DNA of 64,000 nucleotides, from contig JADPRS010000006.1 of NCBI GenBank assembly GCA_015686845.1, forward strand, positions 1 to 64,000. The letters run 5' to 3'. This DNA comes from Lutibacter sp. B2 (GTDB lineage: Bacteria > Bacillota > Clostridia > Peptostreptococcales > Thermotaleaceae). Of the stretch, positions 4,710 to 45,329 are shown in pieces (position 1 is the stretch's first letter; every line of letters starts with the position of its first letter). The notes below the pieces were generated by a model. The model made no database searches. It was not told the origin of the DNA and was given only the letters and a program-made list of their open reading frames with translations. Position numbers and translations under genes: made by a program.

Positions 4710-4739
4710 ATGTTTTTAAGGTGTATGAGGGGGAGAATT

Positions 4740-19114: not shown

Positions 19115-20326
19115 ATGATATTACAAGCATATAAACTTGTAAAAGATAACAAAGGTGCTGGTGGTATTGATGAAGTTAGTTTGGACATATTTGATAGAGA
19201 TTGGAAAAACAACTTATATAAAATATGGAATAGGATGGCTTCAGGTACATACTTTCCACCACCTGTAAAAGCAGTTCCAATACCTAAGAAAAGCGGTGGA
19301 ACAAGGATATTAGGAATACCTACAATAGAAGATAGAATTGCGCAAATGGTAGTGAAACTAAGTATAGAAAAAAATATTGAAACATGTTTTCACCAAGACT
19401 CATATGGTTATAGACCTAATAAGTCAACCTTAGATGCTATAGAAATAACTAGAAATAGATGTTGGAAATATAATTGGGTACTTGAGTTTGATAGTATAGG
19501 ATTGTTTGATAATATCAATCATGATTTATTAATGAGGACAGTAGAAAAACATTCTAAAAATTCATGGGAAATACTTTATATTAAAAGATGGATTGTCGCG
19601 CCCATAGTATTTCAAGATGGACGATTAGAAGAAAGAATAAGAGGGGTGCCACAAGGTGGTGCCATTAGTCCCCTACTTGCTAATTTATTCTTACATTATG
19701 TTTTTGATTGTTGGATGACCCAAAATTATGCTAATAATCCATGGTGTAGATATGCTGATGATGCAATAATACATTGTAAATCGCATAAACAAGCGAAATT
19801 CATCAAAGATAAACTTAATGAACGGATGCAAAGTTGTGGATTAGAATTACACGCAACGAAAACCAAGATTGTTTATTGCAAAGATAGTAATCGAAAAGAG
19901 TATTATGAAAACTGTAATTTTACTTTCTTAGGCTATGAGTTTAGACCAAGAAAGGCAAAAGGTAAGAAAGGGGTAGTATTTACAAGCTTTTTACCAGCAA
20001 TTAGTAGTAATGCGAAGAAATCGATAAGGCAATCTATTAAAGAATGGCGCCTGTTATGGATGACGAATCAAAATTTGATAGACATTGCTAAAAGATACAA
20101 TTCAGTTATTCAAGGATGCCTTAATTATTATGGTAAATATGGAAGGAAAGAATTGGTGAAAGTATTGGAGCATGTTAATAAACATCTCTGTCAATGGTTT
20201 AGAAGAAAGTACAAAAGTTATAAACGTAAGAAAGAATTAACGAGAAAAGTTATGACTTCTATAGCAATAAGAGAACAAAATATGTTTGCACATTGGAAGG
20301 TAGGTATAACAAAGATGGTTGGATAA
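19115..20326 (+). CDS. Group II intron reverse transcriptase/maturase
   Basis: 403 aa as read. RT motifs: PIPKKSGGTRILGIPTIEDR, then IAQMVVK; DSYGYRPNKSTLDAI; FDSIGLFDNINHDLL (catalytic Asp); GVPQGGAISPLLANLFL; the YADD box in CRYADDAIIH (about residue 212); TFLGYEFRPRKAK. The C-terminal maturase part (GCLNYYGKYGRKELVKVLEH) is present and I see no HNH endonuclease domain. The likely original start is ATG 19081 (MTKTKPFNIT), but that frame hits a TGA near 19117; a one- or two-base indel separates it from the RT frame. The protein may thus be made only from ATG 19115, lacking about 11 residues, or not at all. Confidence 0.85.
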   Translation: MILQAYKLVKDNKGAGGIDEVSLDIFDRDWKNNLYKIWNRMASGTYFPPPVKAVPIPKKSGGTRILGIPTIEDRIAQMVVKLSIEKNIETCFHQDSYGYRPNKSTLDAIEITRNRCWKYNWVLEFDSIGLFDNINHDLLMRTVEKHSKNSWEILYIKRWIVAPIVFQDGRLEERIRGVPQGGAISPLLANLFLHYVFDCWMTQNYANNPWCRYADDAIIHCKSHKQAKFIKDKLNERMQSCGLELHATKTKIVYCKDSNRKEYYENCNFTFLGYEFRPRKAKGKKGVVFTSFLPAISSNAKKSIRQSIKEWRLLWMTNQNLIDIAKRYNSVIQGCLNYYGKYGRKELVKVLEHVNKHLCQWFRRKYKSYKRKKELTRKVMTSIAIREQNMFAHWKVGITKMVG

Positions 20327-21786: not shown

Positions 21787-21817
21787 GCATTTGAAAGTAA
21801 TTAGGGGGATGGGATTG

Positions 21818-24800
21818 ATGAAAACATTATTTGAACTATGCAAACCTAGAAAAAGTGTATTCAGTGAAACTACTAGAGAAGATGTATTGAACTTATCAGA
21901 TTTAATTGAAAATAAAATAAATCCAAATAATTTCTTTGATGAAAACTTCATAACGCAAGGTATGAATATTTTATTTGAAGCTGGATTTAAAAGATTTAAA
22001 AGACAAAGCTCGACAGGGGTAATTAAGTTAACACAAGCAATGGGTGGAGGAAAAACTCATAATATGTTAGCTTTAGGATTACTTGCAAAACATCCTGAGT
22101 TCAGAGAAAGAATAATAGGAAATGGATATAAGAACGATTATTTAGGAGCAATTAAGGTAGTTGTTTTTACAGGTAGAGAAAGTGATGCCCCTTATGGAAT
22201 ATGGGGTTCTATTGCAGAACAATTAGGAAAGAAGGACATATTCAAAGATTACTATTCTCCACTCGCTGCACCAGGAGAAAATGCTTGGATTAGATTACTT
22301 CAAGGAGAACCTTTATTAATACTTTTAGATGAATTACCACCTTATTTAGAAAATGCAAAATCAAAAATGATAGGTAATTCAGATTTATCTGTAGTAACTA
22401 CAACAGCATTATCTAATCTATTTTCAGCTTTAGGTAAAGAACAACTTTCTAATGTATCTCTTGTTATATCTGACCTTAAAGCAACTTATGAATCAGGTAG
22501 TGAATTATTACAATCAACTTTCAAAGAACTTGAAAATGAAGTTAATCGTTCTGCATTAAACGTTGAACCAGTAGGTAGTTCATCAGATGAAGTATATCAC
22601 ATATTAAAAAAAAGATTGTTCGAAAAACTTCCACAAGAAAATGAAATAAATACTGTTGCAATAGCATATAAAAATGCAGTTAATGAAGCAAAACAGATGG
22701 GTCTTACTAATGTATCAGCTGATAAATTATATACAACCGCTAAGGATTCTTACCCATTTCATCCATCAATAAAGGATTTATATGCTAGATTTAAAGAAAA
22801 TCCAGGATTTCAACAAACACGTGGATTAATTAGATTAATGAGACAAATAGTTGCGCAACTATACTCAGGGGATGAGTGTAGATCTAAACAAAAATACATG
22901 GTTAATGTTTTTGACTTTGATTTAAATGATAGAAATATGTTAACTACAATAACTCAAATTAAACAGTCTTTAACTAATGCCATATCTCATGATATAACAT
23001 CTAGCGGTAAGGCTGTAGCAGAACAAATAGATAGTGTTTATGGGCAAAATATAGTTAAAGATGTTGCGAAATTAATTTTAGTTGCATCATTAGCTGATGT
23101 ACCGCATGCATTATTAGGATTATCTTTATCAGAAATAATTGGAGATTTATGTGAACCAGATAAGGATATTACAGGAATAAAGAAAGCTTTAGAAGAGTTT
23201 GAAATGAAAGCTTGGTACTTAGATCACGATAAAGATGGTAGAGTATTTTTCAAAAATACAAAGAATATGATTGCAGAAATGTACTCCTTAGTGGACTCTT
23301 ATAGTAATGAAAAAGCAAAGAAAGAATTGAAAAAATTCTTAAAGGAAAAATTTGAACCTTCTATTAAGGATTGTTATCAAGAATTACAAGTGTTCCCTGC
23401 TATTGATGAAATTAATCTATCAGTAGATAAGGTAACATTAACTATATTTGAACCTTATAGTGGAACGGGGCTTCATCCTGAGTTAAATAAGTTTTATGAA
23501 TCAACATCATATAAAAACAGAGTAATGTTTTTATCAGGTCAAAGAGATACAATGAATAGACTTTATACAGCAGCAAAAGAACTAAAGGCAATAGAAACTA
23601 TACTAGCTAATATGGACGATGAAAAAGTATCAAAGGCTAATCAACAATATCAAATTGCTATGGATACACAAACAAAGAAAGTAATCGCAGTTTTAGAAAG
23701 TGCTAGACAAACTTTTGTAACGTTATACTTTCCAAATAAAAAAGGGATAACTAGTGCCGATTTTTCAATGCAATTTAAAGGAAATAACTATAATGGTGAA
23801 GAACAAATAAGATTAATTTTAAAGGAAAAACAGAAGTTTATTGATGATATTTCTGGAAATTCTCTTGTAGGAAAATGTGAACAAAGATTATTCACAAGAA
23901 AAGAAATGATGTGGAATGAAATTAAAGAAAGAGCTGCTACTAATATAGTTTGGCAATGGCATCATCCAAAAGCTTTAGAAACAATAAAAGATGAATGTAC
24001 TAAGAAAGACATATGGAGAGAGCATGGTGGATATGTAGAAAAAGGACCGTTTGAAAAAGATCCAACAGATGTTAGGGTACAAAAAATAAGAAGTAATAAT
24101 GAAACTGGGGAAGCTACTCTTAAAATTATACCTGTTTTTGGAGATAAAATATATTATGAAGTTGGTGGAGTTGCTACAACTGCATCTTTAGAAGTGGAAG
24201 ATTTTAATAACTTTAAAACTAACGAAATAGAGCTTTCATTCATATGTGTAGATAGTACAGATGATCATCCGGCAGGAAAAGCTATGACATGGAAAGATGA
24301 TGTGAAAGTAAGATATAAATTAAGAGATGTTGCTAATGGAAAAATGCTAAAGCTTGAGTCACACCCACATGTTACTATTAAGTATACAACAGATGGTTCA
24401 AACCCAAAAGAAAATGGGGGTATTTACTATGATGAAGTAGAAATTCCTGATGACACTACATTTATACAAATAGTAGCACAATATAATGAACACTATTTTG
24501 ATGTAGAAACAATAAAAATAGATAAAAAGAAAAAAAGTGGTATAAACATAGATAGTGTAAAGCCACTAAAACTATATAAGTGTATTAACTGTAATGATAC
24601 TAATGCTACTTACTCAGATATTAAATTATTAAAGAAATATAATGCAAAGATAAAAGATATAGCACTTCAAATTTTAAAAGATGGAGAAGAGGGATGGATA
24701 GATTTATCTATAGATAATAGTACAGTTGTTGATTCAGAAAAATTGGAACAAACTATAGATACTTTGAAAACATCTTTTATGGGTGATAGTAGAACTAATA

Positions 24801-24913
24801 TTACATTAGAGTATAATACTATTGAATTTAACAAAGGAGAAGAATTCTTAGATTGGGTGAATGAAAAAGAGTTAAGTTTATCAGAATTTAATGAAAGTGA
24901 GATAATACAATAA
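21818..24913 (+). CDS. DUF499 ATPase of a DNA-modification defence operon
   Basis: A 1031-aa protein from ATG 21818 (RBS TAGGGGGAT). The start MKTLFELCKPRKSVF is typical of DUF499. Walker A appears as LTQAMGGGKTHNMLALGLLA at about residues 68-87 and Walker B as PLLILLDELPPYLE near 165. The middle carries a winged-helix-like region, and the C-terminal 300 residues are beta-rich with Ig-like strands (VTIKYTTDGSNPKENGGIYY). DUF499 proteins are linked in many genomes to DUF3780 and DUF1156 and are predicted defence ATPases. Its stop overlaps the DUF3780 start by one base (TAATG), so they are translationally coupled. Confidence 0.85.
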   Translation: MKTLFELCKPRKSVFSETTREDVLNLSDLIENKINPNNFFDENFITQGMNILFEAGFKRFKRQSSTGVIKLTQAMGGGKTHNMLALGLLAKHPEFRERIIGNGYKNDYLGAIKVVVFTGRESDAPYGIWGSIAEQLGKKDIFKDYYSPLAAPGENAWIRLLQGEPLLILLDELPPYLENAKSKMIGNSDLSVVTTTALSNLFSALGKEQLSNVSLVISDLKATYESGSELLQSTFKELENEVNRSALNVEPVGSSSDEVYHILKKRLFEKLPQENEINTVAIAYKNAVNEAKQMGLTNVSADKLYTTAKDSYPFHPSIKDLYARFKENPGFQQTRGLIRLMRQIVAQLYSGDECRSKQKYMVNVFDFDLNDRNMLTTITQIKQSLTNAISHDITSSGKAVAEQIDSVYGQNIVKDVAKLILVASLADVPHALLGLSLSEIIGDLCEPDKDITGIKKALEEFEMKAWYLDHDKDGRVFFKNTKNMIAEMYSLVDSYSNEKAKKELKKFLKEKFEPSIKDCYQELQVFPAIDEINLSVDKVTLTIFEPYSGTGLHPELNKFYESTSYKNRVMFLSGQRDTMNRLYTAAKELKAIETILANMDDEKVSKANQQYQIAMDTQTKKVIAVLESARQTFVTLYFPNKKGITSADFSMQFKGNNYNGEEQIRLILKEKQKFIDDISGNSLVGKCEQRLFTRKEMMWNEIKERAATNIVWQWHHPKALETIKDECTKKDIWREHGGYVEKGPFEKDPTDVRVQKIRSNNETGEATLKIIPVFGDKIYYEVGGVATTASLEVEDFNNFKTNEIELSFICVDSTDDHPAGKAMTWKDDVKVRYKLRDVANGKMLKLESHPHVTIKYTTDGSNPKENGGIYYDEVEIPDDTTFIQIVAQYNEHYFDVETIKIDKKKKSGINIDSVKPLKLYKCINCNDTNATYSDIKLLKKYNAKIKDIALQILKDGEEGWIDLSIDNSTVVDSEKLEQTIDTLKTSFMGDSRTNITLEYNTIEFNKGEEFLDWVNEKELSLSEFNESEIIQ

Positions 24914-25482
24914 TGGCAGAAAAAAAATCAGCACTTGGATTTGGCTTTATTCCTGAAGAAACGAACCATCATTTCTTAGTCTTTATACCAAAGACTAAGG
25001 ATGGTAATATCACAATTTATGAAAGATTTGATTGGCATAATAATAGTGATGTACAAAAGATAGATGAATCAAGAGATAGAGCTAAAGCGCAAATATCAAA
25101 ACACAAATGGAAGCTTATAGAGGAAACTCTTAAGTTAGAATTTAATAATAGATTAAAGCAACACAATACAATCGTTGGAAGATGGAAGTTAGGACAAGTT
25201 CCCGTAGAAAGGTTACTAGGAAAAGAGATGCTACTTCTAGTATGGGCAATAGAAGATTCTGATCCATCAGTAATACCTATCGCTATTAGAAATTGGCTAG
25301 GGCTTACTCCGGAGGAACGTTGGTGGTTGTTTACAATGACTAACGCTAGCACAGGTGGTTTATATGACAAAAAAGGATGGAGAAAAGCTATTAGATATGC
25401 TTTGTCAGAAAATCCTATAGAAGAAAAGAATAAACAAGCTTCATTATTTGAAACATTATTTGAAAACAAATTGAAAGATTAA
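24913..25482 (+). CDS. DUF3780 protein of the defence operon
   Basis: A 189-aa protein beginning in a TAATG overlap with the DUF499 gene. MAEKKSALGFGFIPEETNHH, then FLVFIPK, and later GRWKLGQVPVERLLGKEMLL and WAIEDSDPSVIPIAIRNWLG, then LTPEERWWLF, are features I associate with DUF3780. No catalytic residues are known. It probably forms a complex with the DUF499 ATPase or the methylase. Confidence comes as much from gene order as from sequence. Confidence 0.8.
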   Translation: MAEKKSALGFGFIPEETNHHFLVFIPKTKDGNITIYERFDWHNNSDVQKIDESRDRAKAQISKHKWKLIEETLKLEFNNRLKQHNTIVGRWKLGQVPVERLLGKEMLLLVWAIEDSDPSVIPIAIRNWLGLTPEERWWLFTMTNASTGGLYDKKGWRKAIRYALSENPIEEKNKQASLFETLFENKLKD

Positions 25483-25493
25483 GGAGAAAATTT

Positions 25494-28436
25494 ATGTCTT
25501 ATGATAAATCATTTATAGAAGTACAATTTCCAGTATCTAAAATTTCAAAAGAAAGCTATAAGGAAAGAAAAGCTGGAAGTAATCAAACATTAACAGGACT
25601 TGGAAAATGGTGGGGGAGAAAACCACTAATATTAGTAAGAGCTACAATAATAGCAGCTCTTTTACCTGCAACTAATAACCCCAAAAAAGACAGAAAAATA
25701 TTTTTAAAGATATTATCTATGGATGATAGAGGATTAGAACAACGAAAAAACAAGCCTATATCAACAAAAGATTTATTATCTAATGCAACAGCTAAAGAAA
25801 AAGAGTTTTATTTTGTATATGATAATGGAGATTATATGGCAAAGTATAATCAAGGAATTAAAAAAGAAGATAAAGCTAAATTGCAGCTTAGTGTATTCAA
25901 TAGATTCTCTTATGATGCAAAACTTAAATATTGTTTAAGATCGGAACAAATAAATAATGATGCAGTTTATGATTGGAATATAATTAATGAACATTTAGGG
26001 ACTAATGCTAATAGTTTACAAGAACTTATTAAAGAATTAGGAGTAAAAAGGTTTGGAAACGAACCTAGAGTAGGAGATTGTTTTGCTGGAGGCGGAAGTA
26101 TTCCTTTTGAAGCAGGAAGAATAGGGTGTCAAGTAAGTGCATCTGATTTAAATCCTATAGCAGGACTATTAAATTGGGCTAACCTGAATATATTAACAAA
26201 ACAATCGTCAGATGCAGATAATTTAAATAAATTTCAAGAAAAAATTTATGATGAGTTGATAAAGATAATTGAAAACTTTAAAATCGAAGAAAATGAATTA
26301 GGATGGAAAGCTAAAACCTATCTATATTGCAATGAAACGATATGTCCAGAATGTGGTGTAAAGGTTCCACTTTTACCGTCAATGGTTATCAGTAAAAAAT
26401 ATAGAGTTATAGCAGAACTGGAATACTGTGACTTCAATAATAATTTCGAAATAAACATTAAATCTGGCGCAAGTAATAAACAAATATCAGAATGTGAAGG
26501 AAATAATACTATTGGCAAGCAAGGGCTTATGTGTCCTAATTGTAAAACAACAACAGGTATAAGCGTTATAAGAAAAGATAAAAAAGAAAATGGCATAACA
26601 AAATATGGATTAAGAATGTGGGAAAAACAACAAATTACTCCTATAGAGATAGACACTTTTCAAGAACGGTTATATTGTATTAAATATTTCGAGAAGTTTA
26701 ATAATAAAAGCTGGGAAGAGATAATAAAGAAAAATCCAGCTACGGTAGATAGCGTTTACGGTAAATCTCATTATGTAAAACCTACTGAAATGGATATGGA
26801 TAGGGAAAGAAAAGTTGTGGAAATTATTAAAGAAAGAATTAATATTTGGCAGGAGAAGGGTTACATACCTGATAGTCTTATTGAAGAAGGATCGAAAACA
26901 AATGAACCAATAAGAACAAGAGGGTGGAAGTATTGGCATCATTTGTTTAATCATAGACAGCTATTAACTAATGGTCTTTTCTCAGAAATATCTGATAGAT
27001 TATCAAAAACAAAGGAAGAAAAAGTTATTTCATTATTGTCTATCAATAAATGTGCAGATTTTAATTCAAGAATTGGAACTTGGGATGCAGGTAGGGACTA
27101 TGGGGTAAATGTATTTTTAAATCAAGCACTAAATGCAACATATAATTATCCAGTAAAAACATGTTTATCTCTTTATAATTTATGGATGAACAGTATTCAA
27201 GGTTTAAATATTAAAATTGATTCAAATGTACATATTGCTGATGCAAGAAAAATAAAAAATAAAGTTGACTTATGGATAACAGACCCACCATATGCTGATG
27301 CAATAAATTATCATGAGCTTTCTGAATTTTTTTTAGCATGGGATAAAAAACGAATACAAGAAATATTTGATGATTGGTATTCAGATTCTAAAAGAGTTTT
27401 AGCTGTAAAAGGGATAGGAGAAACTTTTAACAATAGTATGGTGGAGGTATATTCAAATTTAAACAAAAACATGTCAGATAATGGTATGCAAATAGTTATG
27501 TTTACTCATTCTGATGTTAAAGTTTGGGCAGAACTTGCGATGATACTTTGGTCATCAAGATTGCAAGTTACAGCAGCTTGGAATATTTCAACTGAAACAG
27601 AATCAGGTGGATTAAAAAATGGTAACTATGTAAAAGGAACAGTTATTTTAATACTAAGAAAACAAAGTTCAGATGAAACTGTTTATTTAGATGAATTATA
27701 TGCAGAAATAGAAGATGAAGTAAAATATCAAATTGATTCTATGAGAACATTAGATGATAAAGAAGATCCTAATTTTAGTGATCCAGATTATTTATTAGCA
27801 GCTTATGCAGCATCATTAAAGATTTTGACATCCTACAAAAATATTGAAGATATTGATGTGAAATATGAACTTTCAAAGGCTAGAAATACTAGTGAAGTAT
27901 CTCCAATAGAAAATATAATCAATCAAGCTGTCAAAATAGCTTATGATTATTTAATACCAAGTGAGTTTGATAGTTTTATATGGAAGTCTCTTATACCAGA
28001 AGAGAGATTATATTTAAAAGGCATAGAGCTGGAGAAGCACAACTTATATCAATTATCAGCTTATCAAGAGTTAGCTCGGGGTTTTGGTGTTGGAGAATAT
28101 ACAACAATATTAGCTAGTACAAAAGCTAATACAGCAAGACTAAAGACTCCTAAAGAGTTTGCTATGAAGAACTTAAATGATAGTTCTACTTTCGGTAATT
28201 CATTACTTAGAAATATACTAGTAGCAATTCATTTAGGATTAAAAGAAGAGGATACATCTAAGGGTAGAAATTGGTTGAAGACAGAGGTTGCAGATTACTG
28301 GAGTAAGAGAAGTAGTATTATAGAAATATTAAATTATTTATCTAAAGCAGAGTATATAGATAACATGGATCATTGGAAAGAATGTGCTCATGAAGCATTT
28401 ATACTTAAAAATCTTGTAGAGAATGATAATATTTAG
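25494..28436 (+). CDS. DUF1156 adenine-specific DNA methylase
   Basis: A 980-aa protein, RBS AAGGAGAA. The N-terminal DUF1156 signature is FPVSKISKESYKERKAG, then GLGKWWGRKPLILVRATIIA. SAM-binding motif I is CFAGGGSIPFEAGRIG at about 195-210, and ASDLNPIAGLLNWANL follows. Two zinc-ribbon-like CxxC pairs (CPECG and CPNCK) lie at about 283-350. Catalytic motif IV is DPPYADAINYHELSEFFLAW near 597, as in N6-adenine methylases with a DPPY box. It likely methylates host DNA to mark self for the accompanying helicase. It is much longer than a plain methylase, with a helical C-terminal third. Confidence 0.9.
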   Translation: MSYDKSFIEVQFPVSKISKESYKERKAGSNQTLTGLGKWWGRKPLILVRATIIAALLPATNNPKKDRKIFLKILSMDDRGLEQRKNKPISTKDLLSNATAKEKEFYFVYDNGDYMAKYNQGIKKEDKAKLQLSVFNRFSYDAKLKYCLRSEQINNDAVYDWNIINEHLGTNANSLQELIKELGVKRFGNEPRVGDCFAGGGSIPFEAGRIGCQVSASDLNPIAGLLNWANLNILTKQSSDADNLNKFQEKIYDELIKIIENFKIEENELGWKAKTYLYCNETICPECGVKVPLLPSMVISKKYRVIAELEYCDFNNNFEINIKSGASNKQISECEGNNTIGKQGLMCPNCKTTTGISVIRKDKKENGITKYGLRMWEKQQITPIEIDTFQERLYCIKYFEKFNNKSWEEIIKKNPATVDSVYGKSHYVKPTEMDMDRERKVVEIIKERINIWQEKGYIPDSLIEEGSKTNEPIRTRGWKYWHHLFNHRQLLTNGLFSEISDRLSKTKEEKVISLLSINKCADFNSRIGTWDAGRDYGVNVFLNQALNATYNYPVKTCLSLYNLWMNSIQGLNIKIDSNVHIADARKIKNKVDLWITDPPYADAINYHELSEFFLAWDKKRIQEIFDDWYSDSKRVLAVKGIGETFNNSMVEVYSNLNKNMSDNGMQIVMFTHSDVKVWAELAMILWSSRLQVTAAWNISTETESGGLKNGNYVKGTVILILRKQSSDETVYLDELYAEIEDEVKYQIDSMRTLDDKEDPNFSDPDYLLAAYAASLKILTSYKNIEDIDVKYELSKARNTSEVSPIENIINQAVKIAYDYLIPSEFDSFIWKSLIPEERLYLKGIELEKHNLYQLSAYQELARGFGVGEYTTILASTKANTARLKTPKEFAMKNLNDSSTFGNSLLRNILVAIHLGLKEEDTSKGRNWLKTEVADYWSKRSSIIEILNYLSKAEYIDNMDHWKECAHEAFILKNLVENDNI

Positions 28437-28456
28437 AAATAAATGGGGGAGTTAGT

Positions 28457-31159
28457 TTGCTAAGAAGATATTCTTCAAGAAGAGAAAAACTAAACAAATC
28501 CTTCCTAAACAATAAACTAAGAGGAGCTAAAGCCTATGACAGAATAGCCGGGTACTTTAGCTCCTCTATTTTAGAATTAGCAAGTGAAGAACTTGAAATC
28601 CTGGAAGGTAAAATAAGAGTTGTATGCAATTCTGATTTAAATAAAGAAGATGTAATGACAGCTACACTAGCTAAAAATGTTATGAGAAAAGAATGGTGTG
28701 AATTTAAGCCAGAAGAAATTCCTTTTACATCCTCTAATAGATTAGAGAAACTATACAACTTATTAAAAGATAAAAAATTACAAGTTAAAGTTTTACCTAA
28801 TGAATATTTTGGTTTAATTCATGGAAAGGCAGGAGTTATAACTTTAAAAGATGATTCAAAAACTTCTTTTATAGGAAGTATTAATGAGACTTTTTCAGCT
28901 TGGAAATTAAACTATGAATTATTATGGGAAGATGATTCAGAAGATACAATTAAATGGGTTCAAGAAGAATTTGATGCGCTTTGGAATAGTCCTTTTGCAG
29001 TACCACTTTCAGATTTTATTATTGAGGATATAGATAGAATATCCAATAGAACAAAAATATCAACAGTAAAAAATTGGAAAGAAGAATCAGATCCAGCATC
29101 TGTAATAGTTGAATCGCCTGTTTATAGAAAAGAATGTGGTTTATGGGAACATCAAAAATATTTTGTAAACCTTGTTTTTAATGCTCATAAAAAATCCTAT
29201 GGGGCTAGGTATATACTAGCTGATATGGTTGGACTAGGAAAGACAATACAGTTAGCAGCATCAGCACAATTAATGGCTTTATACGGTGATAAACCTATAT
29301 TAATAATTGTTCCTAAAACCCTTATGTGGCAATGGCAGGAAGAAATGAATACCTTATTAGATATGCCCTCAGCAGTTTGGACTGGTAGAGAGTGGATTGA
29401 TGAAAATGGATTAAAGTATCCATCAGATGGTTCTAAGTCAATAAAGAAATGTCCAAGAAAAGTTGGTATTATATCTCAGGGATTAATAACAGCAAACTCT
29501 GAATGTATAGAACACCTATTAGGAATGGATTTTGAATGTATTATTGTAGATGAATGTCATAGAGCTAGAAGAAAAAATTTAGGTGAAGGAAAAGAAAATG
29601 ATAAACCACAACCTAATAATTTATTAGATTTTTTGCTTAATATATCATGCAATACTAAAAGCATGCTTTTAGCTACAGCTACACCAGTTCAAATGTACCC
29701 AATAGAGAGTTGGGATTTGCTTAATATATTATCTCAGAAGAATTCAAGTGTTTTAGGGGATAGGTTTAGCAAGTGGAGAACTAATTCTAAAAAGGCATTA
29801 GACTTAGTAATGGGAAGAGATGAACTAGACAGATTTAGCTTAGATAATTGGGAGTGGGTAAGAAATCCATTTCCAGTTAAAGAAGAGGATATGATGACTT
29901 TTGGAAGAATAAGAAGAAAACTAAATATGAGTGACGAAGATTTTGTTATTAATCCAGACGTATTGAAAACTTTAAGAGGCACTCCAGAGGAAAGAAAGAT
30001 TGGGCGTATTATTGAGGGCGGATTTATAGAAAAACATAATCCTTTTATAAGATATATTGTTAGAAGAACAAGAGATTTCTTAGAGAATGAAATTGACCCA
30101 GAAACTAATGAGCCTTATTTAAAAAAAGTAGAAGTAAAACTATTAGGTGAAAATGATAATGAAGCTATTTCATTACCTCTTTATCTTCAAGAAGCATATT
30201 TATATGCTGAAGAGTTCTCTAAATTACTATCTCAAAGAGTAAAAGGTGGGGGATTTATAAAGACACTACTGCTAAAGAGAGTTGGAAGTACAATGATTGC
30301 AGGTGAATCTACGGCTAAGAAGATGTTGCAGTGGGGAGTTATAGCTGATGAGGAAGATGATGATGACAATTCAAATGGTGATAAGGAAGATGGAATAAAG
30401 GACTTAACAGATGAAGAAAGAGAATGCCTTGAAAAATTCATAAAAACACTTGAAATAAATAAAGAAAAAGATCCTAAATATCAATTAGTATACGATTTGT
30501 TAGTCAAAGAAAATTGGAAAGAAAAAGGCTGTATTATATTTTCTCAATATTTTGATTCAGCATATTGGGTTGCAGAAAGTTTATCTAAAGATATTAAAGG
30601 TGAACAAATAGGAATATATGCTGGTGGAGATAAATCAGGAATAATTACTGATGGAATTTATACTAAAAAGACAAAAGAAGAAATAAAAGCTATGGTAAAA
30701 AGGTATGAGATAAAGATACTATTAGGAACAGATGCAGCTTCTGAGGGGCTTAATCTTCAAACCTTAGGAACACTTATAAATCTCGATTTACCATGGAATC
30801 CAACAAGATTGGAACAAAGAAAGGGACGTATCCAAAGAATAGGACAAGTAAATGATTTAGTTTATCTATACAATATGAGGTATAAAGATTCCGTTGAAGA
30901 TAGAGTACACTCAATGCTATCAGAGAGATTAGAACATATCCATCATATGTTTGGTCAAATACCAGATGTCCTTGAAGATGTATGGATTCAAGTAGCACTA
31001 GACGATATAGAACAAGCAAATAAAATCATTGATGAAGTACCAAAAAGTCATCCATTTAAGTTGAAATATGAAAAAGGTGTAGGTAAAGTAGATTGGGAAA
31101 GCTGCACTAAGATATTGGATAATAAAGAAAAGAAAAAATACTTGATGGAATCTTGGTAA
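28457..31159 (+). CDS. PLD-like nuclease fused to an SNF2-type helicase
   Basis: A 900-aa protein from TTG 28457 (RBS GGGGGAG). Residues 1-190 form a phospholipase D-like nuclease domain: HGKAGVI with FIGSINETFSAWKLNYELLW is one HKD-type half site. The helicase follows: Walker A ADMVGLGKTIQLA at about 255-267, DECH box IIVDECHRARR near 364, motif III ATATPVQ, and C-terminal motifs LLGTDAASEGLNLQ and PWNPTRLEQRKGRIQRIGQ. An acidic insertion (EEDDDDNSNGDKEDG) lies at about 635. This is the probable effector that acts on unmodified DNA. It is the last gene of the operon, 20 bases after the methylase. Confidence 0.9.
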   Translation: MLRRYSSRREKLNKSFLNNKLRGAKAYDRIAGYFSSSILELASEELEILEGKIRVVCNSDLNKEDVMTATLAKNVMRKEWCEFKPEEIPFTSSNRLEKLYNLLKDKKLQVKVLPNEYFGLIHGKAGVITLKDDSKTSFIGSINETFSAWKLNYELLWEDDSEDTIKWVQEEFDALWNSPFAVPLSDFIIEDIDRISNRTKISTVKNWKEESDPASVIVESPVYRKECGLWEHQKYFVNLVFNAHKKSYGARYILADMVGLGKTIQLAASAQLMALYGDKPILIIVPKTLMWQWQEEMNTLLDMPSAVWTGREWIDENGLKYPSDGSKSIKKCPRKVGIISQGLITANSECIEHLLGMDFECIIVDECHRARRKNLGEGKENDKPQPNNLLDFLLNISCNTKSMLLATATPVQMYPIESWDLLNILSQKNSSVLGDRFSKWRTNSKKALDLVMGRDELDRFSLDNWEWVRNPFPVKEEDMMTFGRIRRKLNMSDEDFVINPDVLKTLRGTPEERKIGRIIEGGFIEKHNPFIRYIVRRTRDFLENEIDPETNEPYLKKVEVKLLGENDNEAISLPLYLQEAYLYAEEFSKLLSQRVKGGGFIKTLLLKRVGSTMIAGESTAKKMLQWGVIADEEDDDDNSNGDKEDGIKDLTDEERECLEKFIKTLEINKEKDPKYQLVYDLLVKENWKEKGCIIFSQYFDSAYWVAESLSKDIKGEQIGIYAGGDKSGIITDGIYTKKTKEEIKAMVKRYEIKILLGTDAASEGLNLQTLGTLINLDLPWNPTRLEQRKGRIQRIGQVNDLVYLYNMRYKDSVEDRVHSMLSERLEHIHHMFGQIPDVLEDVWIQVALDDIEQANKIIDEVPKSHPFKLKYEKGVGKVDWESCTKILDNKEKKKYLMESW

Positions 31160-35966: not shown

Positions 35967-36452
35967 ATGAAAAGAAATTTAACTTTTGATAAAGAAAAAG
36001 CTTATCATAAAACAAAGCTACTTCTTAAAATATACAGAGATGTTATATGGAGTGTTGAAGATAGGGTAGCAGAACTTGAATCGGAATATTATGAAATGGG
36101 CAGTAATAGTTTAGTCGAAGCATTAGATTATTTAGATGATTATGATCCTAATATAAACAAAAAAGAACTTGAAGAGGAACTATGTTCTATTTTTAAAAGT
36201 AAATTTCTTATTGAAATTGTAGAAAAAGCTTTGTTCAAAGTTAAGAAGTACCCTGATTATGGTGAAATTTATTTTGAAATTATTTATAAACAATACATTC
36301 AAAAAAATAAGTATCCTGAAAAGTATATTATTCAAGTTTTAAATTGTGAAAGAACCACCTTTTATAAGAGAAAGAAAGAAGCTATAAAGATAATGGGAGT
36401 AGCATTATGGGGATATGTTTTACCAGAACTCAAAGGAGTATGGGTGCATTAA
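35967..36452 (+). CDS. ArpU/RinA-like phage-type transcriptional regulator
   Basis: A 161-aa protein, RBS GAGGAGG. The C-terminal half reads KYPDYGEIYFEIIYKQYI, then CERTTFYKRKKEAIKIMGVA, then LWGYVLPE; the pattern xYPxxGxxYxxIL and SRxTFYRxKKEAIxxxGxxLWG is that of ArpU-like regulators, which act like a region-4 sigma fragment and switch on late genes in phages. Its operator-controlled promoter suggests that it is a switch for ICE excision or transfer. A strong terminator follows 100 bases later. Confidence 0.65.
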   Translation: MKRNLTFDKEKAYHKTKLLLKIYRDVIWSVEDRVAELESEYYEMGSNSLVEALDYLDDYDPNINKKELEEELCSIFKSKFLIEIVEKALFKVKKYPDYGEIYFEIIYKQYIQKNKYPEKYIIQVLNCERTTFYKRKKEAIKIMGVALWGYVLPELKGVWVH

Positions 36453-36555
36453 TTTGAATTAGATATGAACTAAAAGTGAACAAAGTATCTACAAAAAAAG
36501 TACTGTATGTGAATTATTTAAATGCTACACTATTTATAGTGGGAAGTTCTATACT

Positions 36556-36621
36556 AAAAAGCCCCGATTATCAATCCTTATTTTCAAATAAGGATTGATA
36601 ATCGGGGCTTTTTTTTATAAT
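36556..36621 (+). terminator. Strong terminator, 28-bp perfect stem
   Basis: The arms start AAAAAGCCCCGATTATCAAT (36556-36583) and mirror exactly at 36586-36613, with only TC at the centre; a T run follows. With the A run on the left it can work in both directions. It isolates the ArpU-like gene from the sigma region. Confidence 0.85.
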
Positions 36622-36633
36622 CAGAATTCTCAG

Positions 36634-36661
36634 TTGTTCAATTAAATAACAGGTCTATAAA
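36634..36661 (+). promoter_or_regulatory. Promoter of the sigma-like gene
   Basis: TTGTTC (36634-36639), 16-base spacer, TATAAA (36656-36661). Transcription would start near 36668, at the foot of the next hairpin. Confidence 0.45.
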
Positions 36662-36666
36662 ATGGG

Positions 36667-36697
36667 GCACAAGATTTTATCTTGTGTCTTTTTTTAT
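36667..36697 (+). terminator. Early hairpin with T run in the sigma leader
   Basis: GCACAAGA and TCTTGTGT pair around TTTTA, followed by CTTTTTTT. If the promoter at 36634 is used, this lies at the very 5' end of the transcript and could abort most transcripts or protect the 5' end. Confidence 0.6.
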
Positions 36698-36722
36698 TAC
36701 CAATTTTAAGGAGATGACGAGA

Positions 36723-36761
36723 ATGAAGAAGTATCTAATTCATTTTACACGTGCTCCATAA
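36723..36761 (+). CDS. 12-aa leader peptide MKKYLIHFTRAP
   Basis: A 12-codon frame with a strong RBS (AAGGAG at 36708-36713, 9 bases before the ATG). It ends in Arg-Ala-Pro directly before the stop. The stop codon touches the 5' arm of the helix that masks the sigma-gene RBS, so a ribosome held at the end of this peptide would open that helix. This is the layout of translational attenuators such as erm and cat leaders. Whether RAP causes stalling is inference; related RAPP/RAGP motifs are known arrest sequences. Confidence 0.6.
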   Translation: MKKYLIHFTRAP

Positions 36762-36807
36762 CCTTCAAATTTGAATGTTAGTAACGAAAAAAATCAAATT
36801 TGGAGGT
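36761..36807 (+). promoter_or_regulatory. RBS-sequestering helix in front of the sigma-like gene
   Basis: CCTTCAAATTTGA (36762-36774) pairs with TCAAATTTGGAGG (36794-36806): 13 pairs with one G-U, plus A36761-T107 (36807) as a fourteenth. The right arm contains the whole TGGAGG RBS of the sigma-like gene. The loop is 19 bases. Translation would be off unless the helix is opened, for example by a ribosome on the leader peptide. Confidence 0.65.
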
Positions 36808-36814
36808 AGAGATA

Positions 36815-37252
36815 ATGAGTAAATTAAAAGATGAACAAGTAGATAAAAGAAAGAATTTTTTTATTCCGATAGATGGGAAACTATATGAAACAAGCGAAGA
36901 AATCTATAGGAATTATTATAGAATGGATAGACGTGAACGTTATTTAGAAGAACGTAGTAGAAAACATGAATTATCCTATGAGGCTTTAACAGATGTAGAT
37001 TATCCAATTGAAGAAAAGATGGTTGATCAACCAGAGGGTATTGAGGATGAAGTCATAACATCCATATTAATTGAAAAAATACTTTTGGTAATTTCACAAT
37101 TATCAGAAGAAGAAAAACAGCTCATTCAGGAGCTGTTTTTTTGTGGGAAAAGTGAAGTTGCATTAGCAAAAGAAATAGGTATTGCAAGGACAACGATTCA
37201 ATCACGAAAATATAAAATTCTCTCAAAAATAAAAAAACTGCTAAAAAATTAA
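36815..37252 (+). CDS. ICE sigma-70-like factor (region 4 HTH)
   Basis: A 145-aa protein from ATG 36815, RBS TGGAGG at 36801-36806. The N-terminal part (FFIPIDGKLYETSEEIYRNY, then YRMDRRERYLEERSRKHELS) is typical of the small sigma-like proteins of Tn916/Tn1549-type ICEs. The C-terminus has the region-4 HTH: LSEEEKQLIQELFFCGKSEV, then ALAKEIGIARTTIQSRKYKI. Region 2 is absent, so it may act as an activator-like partial sigma factor. It likely controls genes for excision or conjugation. Its translation appears to be gated by the attenuator just upstream. Confidence 0.8.
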   Translation: MSKLKDEQVDKRKNFFIPIDGKLYETSEEIYRNYYRMDRRERYLEERSRKHELSYEALTDVDYPIEEKMVDQPEGIEDEVITSILIEKILLVISQLSEEEKQLIQELFFCGKSEVALAKEIGIARTTIQSRKYKILSKIKKLLKN

Positions 37253-37261
37253 AAAAAGTTT

Positions 37262-37668
37262 CGGCATCCCCCCCTCATTTTTCGGCTTAAGAAGTGAGGA
37301 GGTATTTCTCATCCTCGTGTTCTTTGATAAATAGCAGAAATTTTTATTCTGCTTATACCCAATATTTTAGGTACGTTACCTTGCGACCGAAAGGAAAGCG
37401 ACATAAACAGATACGCTGAGACTGTTAATAACAAGAGCGAAAAATATCTGGTTTTAAATTATCTAATGGTATAGATAATTCGCCATAATCCGCAAGGGGA
37501 AATTAGAACGATACTTCTGTCAAGTCCTAACTCACAAATGGATGGCAGCTCGCACAGAACGTGACGAGAGAATACAGCCTTAGCCTGGAAGCCAATGGCT
37601 TTGGTTGATTTTATGAGGTCACTAACCAATGACCGCCTAAAATATTGCCCTATATTATAGGGGTACAA
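37262..37668 (+). ncRNA. Candidate structured RNA or DNA region, ICE-conserved type
   Basis: This non-coding stretch is visibly less AT-rich than its surroundings and contains several short stems: CCTCA/TGAGG near 37277-37305, AGCAGAA/TTCTGCT near 37334-37353, AATTATCTA/TAGATAATT near 37457-37481, GGTCA/TGACC near 37616-37634 and CCCTATA/TATAGGG near 37648-37662. No long frame is present. Similar gaps after the sigma gene occur in related ICEs as far as I recall. It could be an untranslated regulatory RNA, a replication or transfer origin, or something new. I cannot assign an RNA class. Confidence 0.35.
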
Positions 37669-40468: not shown

Positions 40469-42157
40469 ATGCAAAGAAATATTGAATATAATGCGGCGAT
40501 ATATATACGTCTTTCTAAAGATGATGGAAATAAAAAAGAAAGTAATAGCGTAGTCAACCAAAGAGAGCTAATACATGCTTTTTTAAAAAATGATCCTGCT
40601 ATTAAGGTGGTTACAGAAAAAGTTGACGACGGATATACTGGTATAAATTATGATAGACCAGCGTTTGAAGAAATGATGAATCTCGTAAATACAGGAGAAG
40701 TGAATTGTATTATTGTAAAGGATTTATCCAGATTGGGACGTGATTATTTAGAAACTGGAAGGTATATAGAAAAAGTTTTTCCACTCTTGTCAGTGAGATT
40801 TATTGCTATAAATGATAGTTATGATAGTATAAAAAATACTTCTAGCACAGACAGTATTATGATTCCTTTTAAAAATCTAATCAACGATTCTTACAGTAGA
40901 GATATTTCTACAAAAGTGAGAAGTAGTATTTTAGTTAGGCAAAAAAAGGGTGATTACACAGGATCTTTTCCCCTTTATGGTTATGTGAAATCTAAAGAAG
41001 ATAAAAGAAAGCTTACGATAGACGATTTTGCAGCTGATGTTGTAAGAGATATATATAAGATGAGAATTGAAGGATATAGTATAGGGAAAATAGCAGATAT
41101 TCTTAATAATAATGGTATATTATCACCATATGAATATAAACAGATGTTAGGTTTTTCTTATAAAAATCCTTTTAAAGTAAATAAAATAGCAAAATGGTCA
41201 GCTGGTACGGTTGAAAGAATACTAAAAAATGAAATGTATACAGGTGTAATGGTACAAGGGAAAAGTGGGCGAATTAATTATAAACTTAAAAAGCTTGTAA
41301 ATAAACCAGAAGACCAATGGATACGTGTAGAAGATACACATGATGCTATTATTTTAAAAGAAAGCTTTAATCTTGTTCGTGAAATCTCAAAACTAGATAC
41401 TCGTAGAAGCGAAGGTAATGATGTGGTGTATCCTTTTTCAGGTGTTTTATACTGTGATAGTTGTAAAAATACTATGGTTAGAAAAATTGTCAGAAGTAAA
41501 GGCAAAGAATATGTTTATTATATTTGTTCTACATATAAAACAGATAAAAATAAATGTACTAACCATAGAATAAGCGATAAAGCATTGAAAAAAACTGTTC
41601 TAGCGGTAATAAAAAATCAAATAGAGCTGATTGTTAAGCTAGATGAATTATTAAAGCATATAGAAAAAATGCCACTTAACAACACAAGATATGAAAAAGT
41701 AGATAGAAGAATAGTTTCTAAAATGGAAGAACTGGAAAAGTATAATAAGCTAAGAGCAGGGCTATACGAGGATTTTAAAGCTGGTATTATAACCAAATCT
41801 GATTATATGGAAATGAAAACTGATTTTGAAATAAGATGTAATGAGATAGAAGAAAAATTATTAGATCTTGAAAACCGTGCAAATGAATTAATAACGAGTA
41901 AAGGTAAAAGTGAATGGATTACAAAATTTACTCAGACTAAAAATATTACAGAAATTACGAGACCTATTGTGGTGTCATTGATTGAAAAGATAGTAGTAGT
42001 AGATAAAAAGAAGATTATCATACATTTTAGGTTTCAAGATGAATATAAAGATGCTATAAATTATGTAGAGAATGCCTTAAAACATACCAAAAGCAGTAAA
42101 GGTATAGACAATAAACTAAACAATATAAAGGGTGGTGTTGAGCGTGGCACGTATTAG
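40469..42157 (+). CDS. Large serine recombinase 1 of 3
   Basis: A 562-aa protein, RBS AGGAGG. Catalytic domain: AAIYIRLSKDDG with the nucleophile Ser, DGYTGINYDRPAFEEMM, and IIVKDLSRLGRDYLETGRYI. Recombinase domain: IYKMRIEGYSIGKIADILNN. Zinc ribbon: CDSCKNTMVR and YYICSTYKTDKNKCTNHRI. A long coiled coil follows. Such enzymes integrate and excise ICEs at short att sites. It overlaps recombinase 2 by 14 bases, and the three genes form one transcription unit. Confidence 0.92.
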   Translation: MQRNIEYNAAIYIRLSKDDGNKKESNSVVNQRELIHAFLKNDPAIKVVTEKVDDGYTGINYDRPAFEEMMNLVNTGEVNCIIVKDLSRLGRDYLETGRYIEKVFPLLSVRFIAINDSYDSIKNTSSTDSIMIPFKNLINDSYSRDISTKVRSSILVRQKKGDYTGSFPLYGYVKSKEDKRKLTIDDFAADVVRDIYKMRIEGYSIGKIADILNNNGILSPYEYKQMLGFSYKNPFKVNKIAKWSAGTVERILKNEMYTGVMVQGKSGRINYKLKKLVNKPEDQWIRVEDTHDAIILKESFNLVREISKLDTRRSEGNDVVYPFSGVLYCDSCKNTMVRKIVRSKGKEYVYYICSTYKTDKNKCTNHRISDKALKKTVLAVIKNQIELIVKLDELLKHIEKMPLNNTRYEKVDRRIVSKMEELEKYNKLRAGLYEDFKAGIITKSDYMEMKTDFEIRCNEIEEKLLDLENRANELITSKGKSEWITKFTQTKNITEITRPIVVSLIEKIVVVDKKKIIIHFRFQDEYKDAINYVENALKHTKSSKGIDNKLNNIKGGVERGTY

Positions 42158-43766
42158 TAGAAAAAATGTAAAACAATCTAACATCACTCTTAAGTATAAT
42201 GTAGGTATTTATGCAAGGCTTTCTATAGAAGATAATGTAACTGGTGGCGATTCTATAGAAAATCAGATTCATATTCTAAAAAACTATATAGAAAAAAATG
42301 AACAACTTATCTTTAAAAAAACTTATATAGATAATGGGTTTTCAGGAACTAATTTTGATAGAGATGCTTTTAATAATCTAATAGAAGATGTAAAAAAAGG
42401 CGTAATCAATACAATTGTTGTAAAAGATTTATCAAGATTTGGTAGAAATTATATTGAATCAGGACATTATATTGAAAAGATTTTTCCTAATATAGGTGTA
42501 AGATTTATTGCTGTTAATGATAATTTTGATAGTCTCAATATAAAAGATAATCAGGATCTAGAAATTGCCTTAAAATCAATTATTAATGATAGCTATGCAA
42601 AAGATATTTCTAAGAAAATATGCACAGCATTAGATGCAAAGAAAAAAAACGGCAAGTTTTTAGGTAAGTACGCACCATATGGATATAAAAAATCAGCTAA
42701 AAACAAATATATACTTGAAGTCAATGAAGAAACAAAAGATGTTGTTACAATGATTTTTGATCTAAGGCTTAAGGGAATGGGTGTGACTGCTATTGCTCAT
42801 AAGCTTAATAATCTTAATATCCCATCTCAGTATAGATATTTATGGGAGAAGGGTTTAAGAGGTAGTAAGGACGTAGAAGAAAAAGCAATGTGGCGAGGTT
42901 CTTCTGTAAAGAGTTTATTAGAAAATCCTAATTATATAGGTGCAATTATCGGGCGTCAATATGATACGGCACTATATAAAGGTAGGCAACATAATAAAAG
43001 AAAACTAGAGCAGATTAACATAATAAAAAACATGCATGAACCTATAATAGATGAAGAACTATTTTATAAAGTACAGAGTATGAGTAATGGAAACGGAAAA
43101 GAAAAAGCAATAGAAAATAAGGACAACATATTAAAAGGTATGATTATTTGCGGTACATGTAGTGGTAAATTACAGAAAGATAGTGGCTATAAAAAGGTTA
43201 GGGAGAAAGAAAAGGCATATACATTCTACTGTCCTAAAAAATATATCAAAGACGGTGGTTGTAATTTTACTGGTATTAAAGAAGATAAGCTTAAAGATAT
43301 CATTTTTAAAAATCTTAGGTTACAGATTAATATTCTTCTAGATGAAAAAAAGTATAAAGAAACTTACATTAATTCACCACAGTATAAAAGGGAACTGTCT
43401 CATTTAGAAAGTAAAAGATCTAAATTAATAGGTGAGAAAAATAAAATCAAAATGCTAAAAGAAGATACTTATAAGGATTTAAAATCGGGATTATTGTCAT
43501 TTAGTGGATATGAATTTGTAACGAAAAAGTATGAAAAAGAGTATAGCTTATTACTACAACAAATTGATCAATTAAAAGTTGATAAAAACAGTTTATTAGA
43601 AACGTTAAAAAATTCTGCTGTTAATAATACTATTCGTTTTAAAGATGAGACTAATTTAACTAGAGAAATGCTTGTATCACTTATTCATAGCATAACTGTT
43701 ACAGAAAATAAAGTTGTTATAAAGTATAAATTTAAAGATGAATATAAGATTTTTCTTGGGGTGTAG
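42144..43766 (+). CDS. Large serine recombinase 2 of 3
   Basis: A 540-aa protein from GTG 42144 (RBS AGGGTGGTG). Catalytic motifs: VGIYARLSIEDN, DNGFSGTNFDRDAFNNLI, TIVVKDLSRFGRNYIESGHY. Zinc ribbon: CGTCSGKLQKDSG with FYCPKKYIKDGGCNF. The coiled coil follows. All catalytic residues are in place. It is paralogous to genes 1 and 3, but not a recent copy. Confidence 0.92.
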   Translation: MARISRKNVKQSNITLKYNVGIYARLSIEDNVTGGDSIENQIHILKNYIEKNEQLIFKKTYIDNGFSGTNFDRDAFNNLIEDVKKGVINTIVVKDLSRFGRNYIESGHYIEKIFPNIGVRFIAVNDNFDSLNIKDNQDLEIALKSIINDSYAKDISKKICTALDAKKKNGKFLGKYAPYGYKKSAKNKYILEVNEETKDVVTMIFDLRLKGMGVTAIAHKLNNLNIPSQYRYLWEKGLRGSKDVEEKAMWRGSSVKSLLENPNYIGAIIGRQYDTALYKGRQHNKRKLEQINIIKNMHEPIIDEELFYKVQSMSNGNGKEKAIENKDNILKGMIICGTCSGKLQKDSGYKKVREKEKAYTFYCPKKYIKDGGCNFTGIKEDKLKDIIFKNLRLQINILLDEKKYKETYINSPQYKRELSHLESKRSKLIGEKNKIKMLKEDTYKDLKSGLLSFSGYEFVTKKYEKEYSLLLQQIDQLKVDKNSLLETLKNSAVNNTIRFKDETNLTREMLVSLIHSITVTENKVVIKYKFKDEYKIFLGV

Positions 43767-43769
43767 CTT

Positions 43770-45329
43770 ATGAATAAAGATTATGTTATTGGTGTGTACC
43801 TTAGAATTTCATCAGAAGACATAAAAATTTCAGATTGTGATAGTAATAGTATAGTATCTCAAAGAGAAAGAATAAATGACTATATATTAAGTCATGAAGA
43901 GCTTAAAGAAGCATCTCTTAAAGAATATGTAGATGACGGAATAAGTGGGACAAATTTTGAAAGAGAAGCTGTTAGTACGTTAATAGAAGATGCTAAAAAT
44001 GGTTTGATTAATTGTGTAATAGTAAAAGATTTTTCGAGATTTGGGCGTAATTATATAGAAACAGGCACCTACATTGATAAAATTTTTCCCTTCTTAGGTA
44101 TCCGTTTTATTTCTGTTAATGATAATTATGATAGTGGAAAATTATCTAGCCACACAGGCGGTATTGACGTTGCTTTTAAGAATATGATCCATGATTTTTA
44201 CTCAAAAGATTTATCTAAGAAGATTATAAGCGCAAAGAGAGCTAATGCAGAAAAAGGAAACCATATGACAGCTTATGCTCCATATGGTTTTGTTAAAAAC
44301 AAGGATAAAAAGCTGGTTGCTGATATTGAAAGTGCTGATGTTGTTAGAAGAATTTTTACCATGAGGTTAAATGGTGAAACCCAAACAGATATTGCAAGAA
44401 TCCTTAATACAGAAGGTGTATCGTCTCCACTAATGCTAAGAAAGAAAAGAAAGGATAAGTTTCCATGTAATAAATCAAATGATATAACATACTGGAGAGG
44501 ATCTAGAATACAAGCAATCCTAAAAGACAGAAGGTACGTAGGGGATGCTGTTTATGGAAAAGTTAAGAGAGCTGAAATAGGTAGCAAGAAAGATGTAAAA
44601 GTACCTGAAAGCCAATGGATTGTCGTAGAAAATGCACATGAAGGAATTGTAAGTCGTGAAGATTTTGAAAAGGTGCAAAGCATGTTTAAACATTACTCTA
44701 AAGGTAGACAAAAGAATATGGAACTGTTTACATCTAAAATCAAGTGTGCTGATTGTAATCATACTTTAATAACCAAGGTGTACAATAATAAATCAGGTAA
44801 AACAGTAAGATATGTTTGTAATACCAAAAGCAGTGTAAGTGTATATAAATGTATTAATAAGCAGATAGATGAAATGATTATTTCTAAAGTGATACTTACT
44901 ATGTTACAGAAATTTAGTCTATTAGTAGATGATGTAAGTCAGGTCAATCGAGGCAAGAAAGATAGTATACAGGAATATGAAAAAGATATTAAAGGCTATA
45001 AAAACACCTTGAAAATGCTACAAAATAAAAAGTTCGATAACTATAAGGCATATAAAGCTGGTAGCATTTCACTTGAAGTATTCAAAAAAGAGAAAAGTGG
45101 ATACGAAAAAAGAGAAAGTGAAATAAATGGTCAGATAGATGTTCTTGAAGAAAAAATGAAGCTATTACGATCTAATGTGGAAGATACTGAGGATACTATT
45201 AAAGACTTTACAAAACTTTCGCCCTTTAATAAACTCACAAGAGAGATGGTAAACATATTTATTGACCAGATTGAAATAGACCATATGGGTAAAATGACCG
45301 TTGTTTGGAATTTTGAAGATGTCTTTTAG
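43770..45329 (+). CDS. Large serine recombinase 3 of 3
   Basis: A 519-aa protein starting 3 bases after recombinase 2. Catalytic motifs: IGVYLRISSEDIK, DDGISGTNFEREAVSTLI, CVIVKDFSRFGRNYIETGTY. Zinc ribbon: CADCNHTLITKV with RYVCNTKSSVSVYKCINKQI. It completes a recombinase triplet of the kind known from some Firmicute ICEs. In such elements the triplet lies near one end, so an att site is expected close by to the right. Confidence 0.92.
   Translation: MNKDYVIGVYLRISSEDIKISDCDSNSIVSQRERINDYILSHEELKEASLKEYVDDGISGTNFEREAVSTLIEDAKNGLINCVIVKDFSRFGRNYIETGTYIDKIFPFLGIRFISVNDNYDSGKLSSHTGGIDVAFKNMIHDFYSKDLSKKIISAKRANAEKGNHMTAYAPYGFVKNKDKKLVADIESADVVRRIFTMRLNGETQTDIARILNTEGVSSPLMLRKKRKDKFPCNKSNDITYWRGSRIQAILKDRRYVGDAVYGKVKRAEIGSKKDVKVPESQWIVVENAHEGIVSREDFEKVQSMFKHYSKGRQKNMELFTSKIKCADCNHTLITKVYNNKSGKTVRYVCNTKSSVSVYKCINKQIDEMIISKVILTMLQKFSLLVDDVSQVNRGKKDSIQEYEKDIKGYKNTLKMLQNKKFDNYKAYKAGSISLEVFKKEKSGYEKRESEINGQIDVLEEKMKLLRSNVEDTEDTIKDFTKLSPFNKLTREMVNIFIDQIEIDHMGKMTVVWNFEDVF

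Follow-up and report, generated by a model that had tools for sequence, protein, structure and literature searches.

Upstream of a gene for a sigma-like regulator in Lutibacter sp. B2 lies a 12-codon leader that ends in Arg-Ala-Pro-stop and abuts an RNA helix of 14 bp, in which the Shine-Dalgarno (SD) sequence of the regulator gene is buried. The best explanation for this arrangement is a translational attenuator driven by ribosome arrest at the last proline/stop codon of the leader, since conservation at the peptide level coincides exactly with the point at which a ribosome would sit over the 5′ arm of the helix; the probability of this reading is estimated at roughly 75%. The anatomy of the region, the conservation of peptide end and helix and the burial of the SD all support it, as does the release of the SD predicted by a folding model, and the recurrence of the module on a second and a third sigma family is counted in its favour.

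If the reading is correct, mobile genetic elements would join the systems governed by arrest peptides. Across many loci suited to comparison, the leaders would provide natural minimal arrest-peptide candidates that stall after approximately 12 amino acids. It would also become possible to test, via the leader codons, the old question of which signals activate integrative elements. Table 1 lists the features of the region; the window is the whole stretch of 64,000 nucleotides that was analysed, and all positions refer to it.

Table 1. Features of the leader and regulator region in the window
Feature	Positions	Strand	Basis and remarks
Likely promoter of the leader-sigma mRNA	36455-36531	+	11-bp phased direct repeats (~36455-36520), then -10-like TACACT (36526-36531)
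T1, strong terminator-like hairpin between promoter and leader	36561-36616	+	Similar in relatives (by eye)
T2, second terminator-like hairpin, immediately upstream of the leader RBS	36664-36697	+	Similar hairpin in relatives
Leader SD AAGGAG	36708-36713	+	Read from sequence
12-aa leader MKKYLIHFTRAP-stop	36723-36761	+	Proposed termination-arrest peptide; ATG at 36723, TAA at 36759-36761; end and length conserved in relatives
5′ arm (anti-SD) CCTTCAAATTTGA	36762-36774	+	Starts directly after the stop codon; folding, covariation
3′ arm TCAAATTTGGAGG	36794-36806	+	Contains GGAGG of the sigma SD (36802-36806); folding, covariation
Sigma-70 region-4-like regulator, 145 aa	36815-37252	+	ATG at 36815; profile matches, AlphaFold model, PDB matches

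The leader and the SD-sequestering helix

The attenuator layout proposed in the initial annotation, with the leader abutting the helix and the sigma SD lying inside the 3′ arm, is confirmed by coordinates and folding. The 14 pairs include one G-U pair, and the helix is closed by A36761-U36807. The minimum free energy from stop codon to ATG is -15.3 kcal/mol, and a 301-nt region is more stable than expected from shuffled sequences (z = -4.3), none of 100 shuffles being equally stable. The leader had also been credited with a strong ribosome-binding site (RBS): the AAGGAG motif is indeed present, but this SD is itself predicted to be partly paired.

In the window the sigma SD is unpaired with a probability of 0.007. 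The median over 56 loci is 0.004, whereas 247 control genes give 0.42. With the footprint of a stalled ribosome blocked in the folding model, the predicted value for the window becomes 0.69 and the median over the same 56 loci 0.36. Many loci show only partial release in the model, and several of the L020-L032 type none; these stay closed, apparently because a different segment upstream can take the place of the blocked arm. Folding model and covariation thus point to an upstream ORF (uORF) whose stall would open an SD-sequestering stem.

The sigma-like regulator

The downstream gene had been annotated as a sigma factor, a designation that holds for region 4 and has been softened to 'sigma-like'. 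The Pfam profile for sigma-70 region 4 (PF04545) is matched with E = 2.9e-5 and 23.9 bits, just under the cut-off of 24.1, and the ECF superfamily model TIGR02937 with a sub-threshold 37.7 bits against 42.9; no match to region 2 is found in the protein with Pfam. The AlphaFold model is confident in the C-terminal half and of low confidence in the N-terminal half (block pLDDT 37-76). The best PDB matches of the confident half are sigma region 4 structures, with TM-scores of 0.73-0.81 when normalised to isolated region-4 chains and E-values of about 1e-3 or weaker. The protein therefore carries the -35 binding helix-turn-helix of region 4 that characterizes the sigma-70 family, and it is the sub-threshold scores and the uncertain N-terminal half that counsel the more cautious name.

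Conservation of the leader end

Relatives of the sigma-like protein were gathered by whole-genome searches and a scan of genome contigs, and the same arrangement is present upstream of nearly all of them. The closest relatives (~42-66% identity) are preceded by RBS-led short leaders whose first eight residues are variable and which end R/H-G/A/Y/S-P-stop or K-x-P-stop; 15 of the 22 leaders of this P-stop class are exactly 12 aa long. Examples from the same place include MVTKYVQPIRGP-stop, MVTKYVWPIRGP-stop, MIDHKSILIRGP-stop, MRDHKSILIHGP-stop and MVNTYYVLIRGP-stop, and further MNQGYVSWIRGP-stop, MCQFFFVVIHSP-stop, MTYTDFVFIRGP-stop, MKRWEPYNTHYP-stop and (GTG)KRLFWYYIRYP-stop. Another subset ends in WxxxIAxYP-stop with a conserved tryptophan. 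Most of the more distant relatives display R-S/A/G-P-P, mostly with a cysteine before it. The comparison with RAPP/RGPP arrest motifs drawn in the initial annotation is therefore borne out: distant relatives carry RSPP, RAPP or RGPP at the place where near ones carry RGP-stop, RYP-stop or HGP-stop. The leader of the window is the sole RAP-stop among those found, and its arginine is preceded by threonine and not by the isoleucine common in this position.

In the RxPP class the codons vary and the residues are fixed: six arginine codons, at least five of the six serine codons plus alanine and glycine, and four proline codons at both positions are in use. The amino-acid entropy is 0 at R, P and P, compared with 1.2-3.1 bits in shifted frames. 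Upstream of the motif, its reading frame contains no stop codon over at least 30 codons in 50 of 51 loci, compared with 2 and 8 loci for the shifted frames. The motif therefore seems to be part of a longer leader, whose start codon is often ambiguous.

Located 35-60 nt before the gene, the motif is found in 57 of the 68 distinct sigma loci but in only 6 of the 312 genes from the same DNA that served as controls. These counts are descriptive, as dereplication of the loci was based on sequence and does not make them independent in phylogenetic terms; two of the six motif-bearing controls are other sigma-like genes. This enrichment of layout and peptide motif, together with SD burial (0.004-0.007 against 0.42), excludes chance as the origin of the arrangement. 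Follow-up of the two sigma-like controls revealed a second sigma family (MVRINLRDYYPFY...), with RSPP or RAPP leaders in most members, and a third, with leaders MTYKWLAYIAKYP-stop or MFYTVWQCQIAEYP-stop.

The helix is conserved alongside the peptide. Since the MAFFT alignment of the helix region is not structure-aware, the SD served as the reference for the register in which pairs were counted. At the 15 positions surrounding it, 92% of cells in the P-stop class form standard pairs, and 55 cells are compensatory, with both sides changed. The pairing register was taken from the fold of each locus, which favours structure, so that the fairer control is the crossing of 5′ and 3′ arms between loci, which gives 69% paired cells; a slid partner gives 40-59%. 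In the RxPP class 79% of cells are paired, and the SD lies outside the local fold in eight loci. The conserved leader end and the compensatory changes that the initial annotation had asked to see in related elements are thus both present.

Pattern searches yielded little beyond the loci already collected. The exact leader, sought as degenerate DNA in the genome contigs, gave no match because its N-terminal residues are not conserved. With the sigma protein as query, one scan of IMG/VR returned nothing and another a single fragment. An IRGP-stop plus SD pattern had 21 matches in IMG/VR, taken as chance, none of them representing a short leader with an RBS in front of a sigma gene; in 348 genomes it matched in five, one match being the known L045 locus. 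WxxxIAxYP-stop had eight matches in the 348 genomes, three of them known sigma loci and the other five devoid of the architecture.

Among loci L020-L032 and L034, several possess an extra SD-led uORF upstream in addition to a minimal MPRCRSPP-type leader, and such minimal leaders have an SD able to pair with the anti-SD. The reading frame of the motif continues in frame into the sigma gene in L034 and others.

Proposed mechanism and alternatives

By default the SD of the sigma-like gene would be locked in the helix. A ribosome on the leader would come to a halt once Pro12 occupies the P site and the stop codon the A site, owing to the peptide end R-A-P (R-G-P, R-Y-P or H-G-P in relatives); by covering approximately 11 nt of the 5′ arm, its footprint would open the helix and allow the sigma gene to be translated. 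Prompt release would allow the helix to close and switch the gene off. Candidate modulators of the arrest are release factors, EF-P or ABC-F activity, a drug or a metabolite, and the regulator would serve the transfer or maintenance of the element. Arrest in the leader had been raised in the initial annotation, and the idea gains support from the conserved peptide end, published arrest motifs and the modelled release of the SD; the leader of the window would presumably be a Pro-stop version. The further suggestions of the annotation, that antibiotics or ribosome stress might be sensed and transfer triggered, are more conjectural. RAPP-like cores require a supporting N-terminal segment (PMC12992588), and the little that a 12-aa chain would offer in this respect weighs against the proposal. 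So do the incomplete modelled release in many loci, the unique RAP-stop end without the usual isoleucine, the partly paired SD of the leader and the two terminator-like hairpins ahead of it.

The layout is equally that of an erm/cat-type attenuator, in which the ribosome would stall only in the presence of a ribosome-binding antibiotic and the element would answer by making its regulator. The short leader and the single SD-sequestering helix in cis are cat-like, a small residue (A/G/S) is common before the last proline, and some relatives reside in elements with tet(O) or tet(40), or near erm(B). Drug dependence appears nonetheless unlikely: the core that is conserved is one known from intrinsic arrest motifs, a single drug context would not accommodate RYP-stop and IAKYP-stop, and no recognised drug-resistance gene is found near the sigma gene of the window, whose place downstream of the leader would in erm/cat systems be taken by a resistance gene for the sensed drug. 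Somewhat harder still to credit is translational coupling without arrest, whereby termination at the foot of the helix would lead to re-initiation at the sigma SD or leave the helix briefly open. The stop codon at the helix base and the near-constant stop-to-ATG spacing of the P-stop class (48-53 nt) would suit it, but it leaves unexplained both the peptide-level conservation of R-x-P-stop and R-x-PP in the face of codon change and the elongation version, in which no stop codon follows the motif.

A metabolite sensor resembling TnaC, with a free amino acid or other ligand blocking release at Pro-stop, is improbable. Leaders of the WxxxIAxYP-stop subset do recall the tryptophan and terminal proline of TnaC; the leader of the window and most 12-aa leaders, however, contain no tryptophan, the RxPP class has no such residue and no ligand is known. 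That the RNA hairpin alone matters and the peptide is incidental has very little to recommend it, even if the helix is strongly conserved and the CCTCC anti-SD encodes Pro-Pro in one frame. Arginine and serine/alanine codons vary synonymously outside the anti-SD, Pro-Pro is encoded by CCG-CC and CCA-CC among others, the reading frame stays open upstream and P-stop leaders retain their length and RBS; this codon variation and frame openness led to the rejection of CCTCC as the sole cause of Pro-Pro. A SecM-like export sensor is also unlikely for the leader of the window, as a chain of 12 aa is too short for the translocon.

Going beyond arrest at Pro-stop in a single element, a portable switch can be envisaged, which would consist of an R-x-P-stop, WxxxIAxYP-stop or R-S/A-P-P leader plus the anti-SD helix, would sit on sigma-like regulators of Bacillota mobile elements and would read the host translation machinery, coupling it to mobility. 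The states read might comprise release-factor capacity, EF-P/ABC-F capacity and ribosome-bound drugs. This generalization is speculative and, on present indications, doubtful.

Relation to known arrest systems

The closer parallel, judged by comparison of motifs and layout, is with intrinsic RAPP and Pro-stop arrest peptides rather than with erm/cat. The arrest motifs themselves, R-A/S/G-P-P and NAP-stop/NSP-stop, are known already; no report on arrest leaders of mobile-element sigma genes was found in open-licence papers. RAPP and RGPP arrest strongly and RSPP is partially permissive (PMC12992588). In the RxPP relatives, as in ApdA, ApdP and the Streptomyces lividans set, a small uORF bears the R-A/G/S-P-P core close to its end, and the downstream gene would likewise be under arrest control; in S. 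lividans two RAPP peptides precede ECF sigma genes (PMC12992588). Known peptides of this type, in contrast, are longer and mostly secretory or membrane peptides, whereas the present ones precede sigma genes of Bacillota mobile elements, and the leader of the window has a stop codon where the second proline would be. RAPP/RGPP uORFs are reported to be missing from many Gram-positives, including Bacillota (PMC12992588). Their apparent absence may reflect ORFs too short for annotation.

NSP-stop and NAP-stop leaders, located upstream of secA/secDF, arrest while the A site is occupied by the stop codon (PMC10987492). The Pro-stop leaders studied here, as proposed, would share the proline in the P site, and they also lie upstream of the regulated gene and, in the RAP/RGP/HGP/HSP-stop members, have a small residue before proline; they differ in the downstream gene, in being much shorter and in having R/H instead of N, and RYP/HYP/KYP-stop members bear tyrosine in place of the small residue. 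In the SecM and secDF2 systems, uORF arrest opens an SD-sequestering stem (PMC10987492), as is modelled here. SecM ends in RAGP and, unlike a leader of 12 aa, is a secreted monitoring substrate able to reach the translocon. The likeness to cat/erm, where a stalled ribosome also unmasks the SD, is a functional analogy only. TnaC acts through Rho-dependent attenuation and free tryptophan. It shares the last-residue proline and the proposed termination-type arrest with the present leaders, and the tryptophan with a subset of them, and differs in that the leaders here act, if at all, on an SD helix.

Putative upstream transcription signals

The likely promoter lies upstream of T1 and T2, with a transcription start expected at about 36540. 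If it is activator-dependent, a property that its phased repeats fit, the leader would be only the last of several controls. The self-match at a lag of 11 has p = 0.005 in the window and is equalled in none of 1000 shuffles in loci L073 and L076. Alignment by eye and pattern reveals GTACTG...TAnnnT in many relatives. A 161-aa ORF (35967-36452) adjoins the phased repeats and has counterparts in L073 and L078; the repeats are perhaps binding sites of its product. With two terminator-like hairpins before the leader, another control may dominate; the tandem arrangement of T1 and T2, which has its like in relatives, points to antitermination or a short RNA. In Rfam, T1 matched CopA and microRNA families, which was taken as chance.

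Genomic surroundings

The window also encodes a VirB4/TraG-like ATPase, an NlpC/P60 protein and three adjacent large serine recombinases, a repertoire consistent with an integrative element. The recombinase genes occupy positions 40469-45329; the first was assigned by Pfam and the other two were judged by sequence. Genes for DUF499, DUF3780, a DUF1156 methyltransferase and a PLD-SNF2 helicase (21791-31159) form a candidate defence system according to PADLOC. Other genes in the window encode a KwaB-like protein (4710-5654), a protein with a colicin-type DNase domain (17077-17646) and a group II intron reverse transcriptase (19115-20326).

In the plasmid records L035 and L036, the sigma-like protein WP_000241709.1 is encoded beside tet(O) or tet(O/32/O)-tet(40), with a CRSPP leader. 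A c-di-GMP-I riboswitch precedes the sigma gene in two relatives (L051:982-1071 and L107:848-937), in which the RSPP leader is also present. A dinG RNA (RF03082) at 37507-37612, scoring 44.0 bits against a gathering threshold of 46.9, is located between the sigma-like gene and a gene for a DinG/YoaA-like helicase. In relatives a dinG RNA (L045, L048, L066) or a pemK RNA (L006, L010, L020, L051, L107, L109) lies a few hundred nucleotides downstream of the sigma gene.
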